The notes beneath the pieces were generated by a model, which was not told the origin of the DNA, made no database searches, and worked only from the letters and a program-made list of their open reading frames with translations. A stretch of 47,880 nt of DNA, taken from positions 1 to 47,880 of the forward strand of contig JAGQMC010000028.1 of the NCBI GenBank assembly GCA_020428815.1, written 5' to 3'. Of the stretch, positions 2,033 through 25,076 are shown piece after piece; position 1 is the first letter of the stretch, and every line of letters starts with the position of its first letter. Both the position numbers and the translations under genes were made by a program. The DNA comes from Candidatus Kaiserbacteria bacterium. Its GTDB lineage: Bacteria > Patescibacteriota > Minisyncoccia > Phycocordibacterales > UBA918.

Positions 2033-2181
2033 CGAGGTGAGAAAGTCTGGGAGACTTTCGCAAGACCTTGACTGCTATTTTGGAGCTTGCGAACAAAATA
2101 GTGACAAGGTGTACAGTTCCTGTAAGGAAGACAAGAAATAATAATTTGAACGGGACACCAGTCCAGTGAAAATTATTTTTC
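2033..2181. repeat. Structured intergenic repeat, copy A
   Basis: The core (2033-2114) matches copy B (10810-10891) over 82 aligned positions with no gap and about 8 differences. It folds into a GAAAGTCT/AGACTTTC hairpin followed by a long stem (ACCTTG...CAAGGT outside, CTATTTTG/CAAAATAG inside), then a small TTCC/GGAA hairpin at about 2117-2129. Two of these helices show compensatory changes relative to copy B. A third AT-rich hairpin with a GGAC/GTCC tip follows up to 2181. Long ORFs that can be read through it (for example 1992-2183 minus) are by-products of the repeat. Function is unknown; the orientation of any transcript is not known. Confidence 0.8.
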
Positions 2182-2229
2182 ATAGTCTGATAAAGCAGAT
2201 TTACCCTATAATAGCCTTAGGATTTATTT

Positions 2230-2350
2230 TAAGGTTGCTAGAGACTACAGATGCGAGGCGTAAGTGGAAAAATTTACGAGCCGTACTTCCTGTACGGTGA
2301 GTAAATTTTTCCACGAAGCAACGAAGAAGATGTTGCCTATAGCAACCTTA
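2230..2350. repeat. Composite hairpin, copy C, nested in the rseP 3' end
   Basis: An outer 11-bp perfect stem (TAAGGTTGCTA at 2230-2240 with TAGCAACCTTA at 2340-2350) encloses a 13-bp perfect stem (GTGGAAAAATTTA at 2264-2276 with its complement at 2302-2314) and an inner CCGTAC/GTACGG stem (2281-2286, 2292-2297). The right outer arm is the last three codons and stop of rseP. The inner GCCGTAC...GTACGGTGAG block recurs in copy B at 10926-10947, and the GCGAGG start and GCAACGAAG end also resemble copies A and B. The 1883-2336 interval has no credible gene; this element and copy A fill most of it. Confidence 0.8.
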
Positions 2351-3428
2351 AAATGTCGTTGTAGGTAACCGCAATCATCAGCAGCATCAAAATAGCAAAC
2401 CCTGCCAAATTAACTCGTCCAGCCCACTCTGGAGGAATTTGTCGACGTGTCACCGCCTCAACCGCCACAAACACTAGACGGCCACCGTCTAAAGCTGGAA
2501 ACGGTAGCAGGTTGATGATAGCCAAGTTTAGAGAAATAATGGCAGTGAAAGTCAGAAGAGCTGTTAAGCCAAATTCAGCAGCATCCCCTACCATACCCAC
2601 AATACCAACTGGCCCGGCCACCTGAGAAAAGTCCGCTTGTCCGACAAAAGCTTGGCTAACCAATGAGTAAAGTCCAACGGCAATAGCAACTAAGCCATCT
2701 ACGGTTGAGATTAAACCATCCTTAATAGCTACAAAAAATGATTTCTTAACTATGTCGATAGTAGCCAGCGAAACTCCCACCGCATATCTACCCTCATCTG
2801 ATTCAATCAATCCTTGAGACGGACTCATCGTCAATATTTTTTCCTCACCAGCATACTCATAGGTAACAGATACTGTTTGACCTTCTGAACCTGAAATAAT
2901 CTCAGTAAAGTCGCTTTGGGTAGGCCCATAAGTGACAGAACCAGCTAAATCAATGGCGACGATTTCTGCCCCGATTGGTAAATCAGCAGCTGGACTATCC
3001 GGCATTACTCCCACCACTGCCACATAAGCTTGGGGAGAGGCTGTAGTTTCATCGACTTGTGTCGGCATACCAACCATATAAGTAACGCTGAACAAAAGCC
3101 AGGCAAATAAAATATTCATAGTTACCCCAGCTACCAACACCAACGCTTGCGCCCAACGTGGGCGTGAGCTAAATCCTCTGGGATCTTTGTCGATATGTCC
3201 AACTAATTCATCCTCGTAGTTCTCTCCGTAAATTTTCACAAAACCTCCGATTGGTAAAGCGTTAAACGTATACTCTGTCTCTCCCTTTTTAACTCCAAAT
3301 AATTTCGGTGGAAATCCAATACCAAACTCGTCCACTCGCATACCAGTTTTCTTGGCCACTATAAAATGCCCCCACTCATGTACTAAAACTAAAATAAACA
3401 AGACGAGTAAGAAAATCAGGACTGACAT
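2337..3428 (-). CDS. rseP: Site-2 intramembrane zinc metalloprotease, RseP family
   Basis: Polytopic membrane protease of the RseP/SpoIVFB type that cleaves transmembrane segments of anti-sigma factors or signal-peptide remnants. The zinc-binding HEWGH motif is at residues 17-21 in the first membrane helix, and the C-terminal LDGGR motif (within LLPFPALDGGRLVF) supplies the third ligand. A single PDZ domain sits between them (about residues 125-215, VVGVMPDSPAADLPIGAEI). Length (363) fits the family with one PDZ. The ATG at 3428 is 2 nt after the frr stop, so the two are cotranslated. The last codons form one arm of the 2230-2350 composite hairpin. Confidence 0.95.
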   Translation of the reverse strand: MSVLIFLLVLFILVLVHEWGHFIVAKKTGMRVDEFGIGFPPKLFGVKKGETEYTFNALPIGGFVKIYGENYEDELVGHIDKDPRGFSSRPRWAQALVLVAGVTMNILFAWLLFSVTYMVGMPTQVDETTASPQAYVAVVGVMPDSPAADLPIGAEIVAIDLAGSVTYGPTQSDFTEIISGSEGQTVSVTYEYAGEEKILTMSPSQGLIESDEGRYAVGVSLATIDIVKKSFFVAIKDGLISTVDGLVAIAVGLYSLVSQAFVGQADFSQVAGPVGIVGMVGDAAEFGLTALLTFTAIISLNLAIINLLPFPALDGGRLVFVAVEAVTRRQIPPEWAGRVNLAGFAILMLLMIAVTYNDILRLL

Positions 3429-10773: not shown

Positions 10774-10809
10774 TACCAATTTCAAGTGCCACAGAAAATC
10801 TAGCAAGTT

Positions 10810-10978
10810 CGAGGTGAGAAAGTCTGTGAGACTTTCGCAAGACCTTGCCTAGTATTTTGGAGTTTATGAACAAAATACTGACAAGGTGTACTGCGCCTGT
10901 AAGGCGATGAGCGAAAAATTTTTAAGCCGTACTGATTGTGCGGTGAGCGCTCGATTGCCGAAACGCAACAAAGTAGCT
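10810..10978. repeat. Structured intergenic repeat, copy B
   Basis: The 82-nt core (10810-10891) aligns without gaps to 2033-2114. Its inner stem is GTATTTTG/CAAAATAC where copy A has CTATTTTG/CAAAATAG, a compensated pair. The next small hairpin is CGCC/GGCG where copy A has TTCC/GGAA. Further on, CCGTAC (10927-10932) pairs with GTGCGG (10938-10943), matching the tip of copy C, and GAGCG/CGCTC flank it. The element fills the space between the second mreB stop (10999) and the promoter of the next gene. No credible ORF is present, although both strands can be translated for 70 or so codons. Confidence 0.8.
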
Positions 10979-10998
10979 GTCCAAAATATGGTGATTGA

Positions 10999-24769: not shown

Positions 24770-25076
24770 TGGCTCCGCAGGTAGGATTCGAACCTACGAC
24801 CAATTGGTTACACTTATCCATGCGTTTCTGCACGGGGTGGACTATATCATCATCCACTGGGGATGCGAGGCGCTTCGACCCATTTCTGGGGCTACTCCAT
24901 AAAGGATAGTCTCTGAACCTTTCTCAAAATGAGACTTGGCTGCTGATTGCCCACGACTGAACGTTTGGGGTTCCAGCAATTCACCTCGTTTGCAACACAC
25001 ATTACTGTGTGAGGCTGCTATTTAGAACATTTGTTCAATGTTACAGCCAACTGCTCTACCACTGAGCTACTGCGGA
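24770..25076 (-). tRNA. tRNA-Asn(GTT) interrupted by a group I intron, CCA encoded
   Basis: Exon 1 (25043-25076) holds the acceptor strand TCCGCAG, D-arm and anticodon 5' side ending CTGT. Exon 2 (24770-24810) begins TAACC and holds the T-arm with GGTTCGAATCC, acceptor strand and GCCA. Joined, the anticodon loop is CTGTTAA, anticodon GTT (Asn), and the acceptor pairs TCCGCAG with CTGCGGA. The mature RNA would be 75 nt including the encoded CCA. The intron splits the anticodon between its second and third nucleotides. Confidence 0.92.
24811..25042 (-). ncRNA. Group I self-splicing intron in tRNA-Asn, 232 nt
   Basis: On the minus strand the exon ends in T and the intron ends in G, as required. 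Conserved-core pieces are visible in order: P-like AATTGCTGGAA, Q-like GGGCAATCAGCAGCCAAG, R-like GTTCAGAGACTATCC and S-like GATATAGTCC. These match the pattern of the small subgroup IC3 introns of bacterial tRNA genes. No ORF is encoded inside, so any homing activity must come from elsewhere. Confidence 0.88.

Follow-up and report, generated by a model that had tools for sequence, protein, structure and literature searches.

A dispersed, structured repeat family of Patescibacteria that interrupts duplicated pieces of tRNA, 5S rRNA and protein genes

We identified a previously unnamed family of dispersed, structured, multi-copy repeats that is restricted to a single order of Patescibacteria and is represented twice in the 47,880-nucleotide stretch of DNA analysed here (the window), a contig from an 883-kb Candidatus Kaiserbacteria genome assembled in 65 contigs. 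These loci are likely to represent a mobile, non-autonomous repeat that has a conserved multi-helix single-strand fold on its + strand. The element is ordinary in size; it is unusual in its strongly covarying fold, in its preference for tRNA genes, 5S rRNA genes and leaderless-looking gene starts, and in duplications that spare the gene and end where RNAs end. Patescibacteria genomes are tiny, yet a structured, apparently mobile repeat is scattered through a whole order of them, entering highly essential small genes and sparing them through duplication of a gene piece.

Two copies in the window and their relatives

A repeat search of the window returned a single long direct-repeat family, at 2033-2127 and 10810-10904, with 88% identity over 95 nt (Table 1). 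The first-pass annotation, made by eye, had put the identity of these two intergenic copies at about 90%, and both copies are real; their location was correct, the proposed length of 82 nt falls short of the family consensus (~95-100 nt), and the proposed range of 2033-2181 reaches slightly too far, the conserved part ending at 2132 and copy-specific flank occupying 2133-2181. Minus-strand genes lie on both sides of both copies, the neighbours of copy 1 being a class II tRNA-synthetase gene and an M50 peptidase gene, and those of copy 2 being mreB and a HerA-like gene. Folding compared with shuffled sequences gave z-scores of -6.0 for 2025-2340 (copy 1) and -4.0 for 10800-10985 (copy 2). The differences between the copies preserve helices, as had been noticed from the letters, and both stem pairs named at that time are present in the sequence: CTATTTTG/CAAAATAG in copy 1 (2075-2082/2094-2101) is exchanged for GTATTTTG/CAAAATAC, and TTCC/GGAA (2117-2120/2126-2129) for CGCC/GGCG.

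Table 1. Coordinates of the element copies, of the helical domains of copy 1 and of an adjacent palindrome in the window
Feature	Position	Strand	Description
Element copy 1	2036..2132	+	Full match to model R1, 102.5 bits
Element copy 2	10813..10909	+	Full match to model R1, 106.1 bits
H1	2038..2062	+	Hairpin G-AAAGTC/GACTTT-C closed by TG..CA; columns 5-34 of alignment A1; 4/6 pairs double-changed
H2/H3	2065..2110	+	Outer ACCTTG/CAAGGT, inner CTATTTTG/CAAAATAG; 11/15 pairs double-changed
Linker and H4	2111..2129	+	Conserved GTGTACAG linker, hairpin TTCC-TGTAA-GGAA; 5/5 pairs double-changed
Separate palindrome, ~130 nt	2226..2354		Self-complementary, TTTAAGGTTGCTA ... TAGCAACCTTAAA ends, right after copy 1; not of the element family

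BLAST found 14 matching places in the host genome, and a covariance-model search, the check that the first-pass annotation had proposed, recovered 12 full copies there and hundreds in relatives. Within the genus, 36 of 38 genomes carry the element, with up to 62 copies each, and over the order the covariance model, whose E-values come from a short calibration, places it in 96/217 genomes and 71/146 genera, the data being draft MAGs. Matches in a phylum sample of 192 genomes fell in same-order genomes only. Named contigs matching the element core were Patescibacteria MAGs, mostly Kaiserbacteria, Zambryskibacteria and Parcubacteria, plus some unnamed bacteria, and the core pattern was absent from 2.9 million viral contigs. 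At Rfam 15 gathering thresholds no family matches the element, and permissive thresholds gave chance-level matches only, in agreement with the initial impression that no named family fits. A search of the literature on palindromic repeats or non-coding RNA in Patescibacteria, Parcubacteria or Kaiserbacteria returned nothing relevant.

Covariation of the fold

We aligned 30 copies obtained by BLAST of the host genome and 59 relatives (alignment A1), and measured covariation as the count of double-change cells relative to 500 shuffles and to slid structures. The alignment folds into three helical domains, with 97.3% of cells paired and double-sided compensatory changes at 20 of the 26 base pairs. 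Double-change cells numbered 106, compared with 25.6 in the shuffles, of which none (0/500) reached the observed value, and no slid structure approached it. Conserved motifs border the first helix (GGTGAG-stem-CGCAAG), the outer helix of the second domain is swapped in relatives from ACCTTG/CAAGGT to AGGTTG/CAACCT, and the family consensus continues after H2/H3 with GTGTAC(A/T)G and then an H4 of NNNNCTGTAAGNNNN. Furthermore, G-U exceeded A-C by 22:5 in this alignment (p=0.0015), and by 70:23 and 42:4 in model-based alignments, which lean to the model, and this excess is easier to reconcile with single-stranded folding of the + strand than with a symmetric DNA cruciform. The comparative data thus strongly support selection on the element to fold as a single strand, and the earlier suggestion of selection for structure is borne out in these 30 copies.

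The compensatory changes might instead arise from quasi-palindrome template switching during replication, with no selection on the fold, and the H1 and H4 stems do vary widely while pairing perfectly even between close copies. However, this mechanism predicts neither unpaired motifs that are conserved as much as the stems nor an excess of G-U over A-C, and we consider it very unlikely. The element could also be a functional structured RNA, cis-regulatory or small, that is kept for the host and whose repetition is secondary; the strong covariation, the G-U bias of the + strand, the conserved unpaired motifs (GGTGAG, CGCAAG, GTGTAC-G and CTGTAAG) and the sense orientation to tRNA genes described below would all be in keeping with such a role. 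It is nevertheless quite unlikely, given that the element has no constant gene partner, occurring beside tRNAs, 5S rRNA and unrelated enzymes and inside isoleucyl- and arginyl-tRNA synthetase genes (IleRS and ArgRS), and that its copy number ranges from 0 to 62 among close relatives.

At -15 kcal/mol, pairing between upstream and downstream flanks was in modest excess only (19% vs 10%), so copies do not generally have an outer stem, though one is clear in a class of copies that lack H1. Here the element follows a tRNA, a hairpin spacer and an antisense tRNA 3' end, in that order, and precedes a copy of the tRNA 3' end starting from the T loop.

In H1-less copies L058, L028, L088 and L072, a variable hairpin splits an antisense tRNA arm between its acceptor and T-stem parts, and the whole has a tRNA-like outline of acceptor, one arm, and a T arm with the element in its loop. 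An extra 3' hairpin domain ending in ..GTGACC(GA) lies downstream of the element in some lineages (L184, L177, L159, L139), possibly together with an outer stem to the upstream flank, and suggests a larger composite element of ~250 nt.

Duplicated gene pieces at tRNA and 5S rRNA genes

A tRNA lies within 200 nt of 82/242 copies, compared with 33/429 control positions ~500 nt away (p~3e-17), and the orientation to nearby tRNAs is sense in 73 cases and antisense in 17 (p~2e-9). Targets also include 5S rRNA genes, one recognised by Rfam (L005) and two by eye (L164 and L286).

Many copies interrupt a partial copy of a neighbouring gene at G|GG(T), with the intact gene adjoining. In 242 distinct copies we searched for upstream sequence that ended at the first GG and was repeated within 400 nt downstream, using a shifted control. 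At the detection thresholds applied, on which these counts depend, 5'-anchored duplications of gene pieces flank 56 of the 242 copies (~23%; 4 in the shifted control), and the mirror, 3'-anchored arrangement was found for 34 (14%; 2 in the control). Flank duplication was not detected in about two thirds of the 242 copies, nor at either window copy; the window copies are probably older insertions in intergenic DNA. The clean layout runs Y, element, a tail of 0 to ~100 nt, and then Y with the rest of the intact gene, Y being mostly 24-59 nt, and 38 sites yield the consensus entry site T(N)G|GG(T).

The duplicates derive from tRNAs, 5S rRNA and the starts of leaderless-looking protein genes, and the intact gene remains because the duplicate usually begins at the mature tRNA end or at the ATG. 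Specifically, 12 sense tRNA cases have a right copy that begins 0-5 nt upstream of the mature 5' end of the tRNA (exceptions exist, such as L193); in most protein-gene cases it begins at the ATG or no more than 5 nt from it, and in antisense cases (L017, L026, L156) near the end of the tRNA terminator, as judged by eye. Some left tRNA pieces differ from the adjoining tRNA, and simple local duplication therefore does not hold for every case. At one such locus (L158:788-881), the left piece is the 5' part of a tRNA-Gly unlike the intact tRNA-Gly alongside, and the GG of the element may complete its anticodon stem.

Taken with the dispersal of the family and with the protein-gene and in-frame synthetase insertions described next, these duplications and targets point to a mobile repeat, such that the first-pass phrase "not mere mobility" was half right and is not supported in that wording, the repeat being structured and mobile-like at once.

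Insertions in protein genes

Gene starts entered by the element include those of GH1 beta-glucosidase, MsrA, RNase HII and a P-loop kinase-like gene, with entry at a Gly codon boundary in most cases. The beta-glucosidase gene is present in 36/38 genus genomes, and most of the starts examined are empty, with a TATACT/TATAAT-like box before the ATG. In G002, G004, G009, G014, G026 and G266 the element occupies the same codon, after ..FYW|G or its local equivalent, and the clearest filled sites have a native-looking promoter to the left of the element. Both the left and right copies in G266 carry the local variant FKW, which points to gene conversion or to insertions that happened separately, rather than to a single old one. 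Four genomes (L134, L147, L284 and L307) have the element in MsrA, at GGCFW|G.

A -10-like box is found 5-9 nt before the ATG in most beta-glucosidase genes (L314-L343), a spacing that suggests that leaderless mRNAs may be widespread in the genus.

Two genus genomes (L274 and L310) carry the element in frame and stop-free within isoleucyl-tRNA synthetase, read on the + strand as a predicted insert of 32 residues (GVRQSGGLSQEVVSNSEVTKNGDNLNSSCKED), and one same-order genome (L059) carries it in frame and stop-free within arginyl-tRNA synthetase on the opposite strand; in both of these essential enzymes the synthetase family models match both sides of the insert. Element lengths range over 89-104 nt and are not multiples of 3, and the family has no fixed coding frame or conserved peptide.

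Left and right copies of the duplicated coding segments differ by 37 synonymous and 6 nonsynonymous codons over 13 pairs, 9 of which come from two genes, and in two neutral simulations the nonsynonymous count was never as low as 6. This bias implies either that both copies are translated, through splicing or bypass, or that one copy came from a diverged homologue. It counts against our main explanation, in that the left copies are not decaying neutrally, unlike pure relics; the test being small and dominated by two genes, we did not build that explanation on it. An intervening sequence that is removed by splicing or ribosome bypass, leaving the left gene start in use, would accommodate the bias as well as entry at Gly codon boundaries. 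Yet an intact copy accompanied every tRNA found to be split by the element, several left tRNA pieces look eroded, the stop-free IleRS and ArgRS copies make removal unnecessary, and an intact right copy should be enough, all of which renders such a sequence highly improbable. A tRNA intron was rejected on the first of these grounds.

Candidate movers

The mover search covered PF00078 (RVT_1, reverse transcriptase) and PF01797 (Y1_Tnp, Y1 transposase), neither of which was detected in the host genome. Over the order, PF00078 occurs in 38/96 carriers and 53/122 other genomes (p=0.58), and, among the genomes sampled over the order, those of the host's own genus lack it. A SINE-like retroelement copied by reverse transcriptase would explain why the duplications stop at RNA ends (mature tRNA ends, leaderless-looking starts and terminator ends) and why the targets are abundant RNAs, but this distribution makes it rather improbable, and reverse transcriptase was rejected as the mover for want of association.

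Y1_Tnp is weakly associated with the element (odds ratio 3.1, p=1e-4), and is absent from 26/96 carriers, namely the host genome and 25 others (for example G002, G037, G044, G046 and G263); it was likewise rejected as the mover. This association and the small, hairpin-rich character of the repeat would fit a DNA element of the REP/MITE type whose movement depended on a DNA transposase, either Y1 (IS200/RAYT) or another. In addition to the missing transposase, however, terminal inverted repeats are absent and duplications of 24-59 nt far exceed the IS norm, the usual target duplications of IS elements being far shorter, and we regard an element of this type as unlikely. At one locus where two copies lie ~1 kb apart (L085), inspection of the intervening ORFs by eye for an autonomous parent revealed no evident transposase.

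Discussion

We favour a non-autonomous mobile repeat, which would spread as a folded single strand, either RNA or displaced ssDNA. The 5' GG of the element would join G-rich sites where the sequence is transcribed, forms hairpins or lies close to a promoter, and upon insertion the stretch of the gene between its transcript end or mature end and the entry point would be copied again, generating the mostly 24-59 nt duplication and allowing insertions into essential small genes to survive. The joining, which is the weakest step, may be carried out by a trans-acting enzyme or by replication template switching, as no reverse transcriptase or Y1 transposase is detectable here. In a more radical version, which we judge improbable, the element would be transcribed as a catalytic or protein-guided RNA that would insert into cellular RNAs (tRNAs, 5S rRNA, leaderless mRNA starts) or R-loops and return to the chromosome with a copy of the transcript end, and in protein genes the left start would be used through splicing or bypass of the element, which would explain the synonymous bias. 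Were this true, bacteria would have a mobile intervening element of a new kind, one acting at the RNA level.

Compared by features, the element is nearest in behaviour to Rickettsia palindromic elements (RPEs), and each of the four classes RPE, MITE, REP and retroelement has defining features that it fails. Rickettsia palindromic elements are short (~150 bp) dispersed hairpin repeats of a small genome that can lie in frame inside protein genes (PMC10969869). The present element is likewise a dispersed hairpin repeat found in frame in protein genes, where the frames are open and translation is predicted; unlike those repeats, it belongs to another lineage, has no constant frame or codon-fixed length, prefers tRNA and 5S rRNA genes, and duplicates a gene piece. 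It resembles MITEs in being small, non-coding, dispersed and apparently non-autonomous, but lacks terminal inverted repeats and a short fixed target-site duplication, showing long duplications and a variable 3' tail, and searches for Y1_Tnp and RVT_1 disclosed no parent transposon. REP/BIME sequences with a RAYT (Y1) are also hairpin repeats near gene ends; the three-domain fold is longer, and the Y1 transposase is missing from the carriers counted above.

SINEs and group II intron-derived elements offer an analogy as non-coding structured units that are linked to tRNA genes and make target duplications of long and variable length, whereas the element has no reverse transcriptase association and no Rfam group II match. 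Byps (mobile translational bypassing elements) and group I introns are analogous as structured intervening elements in genes; in contrast, no interrupted tRNA gene was found that lacked an intact copy, and the IleRS and ArgRS copies are open in frame.

The family is a candidate for submission to Rfam as an RNA family, and explains partial tRNA and 5S rRNA copies as well as synthetase insertions in these genomes. Its natural pairs of empty and filled sites also provide a means to study movement without a recognised transposase or reverse transcriptase.

Two further features of the window and its relatives were observed. The palindrome that follows copy 1 (Table 1) has one partial relative in the host genome (G000:C20:5216-5300). 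Group I introns in these genomes are distinct from the element and are recognised by Rfam. One (L088:1526-1765), from a different genome of the order, adjoins a tRNA that is flanked by the element, and another, at 24770-25052 on the minus strand of the window (RF00028, 80.8 bits), overlaps a predicted tRNA-like gene whose anticodon is odd and which is probably an intron-bearing tRNA gene.
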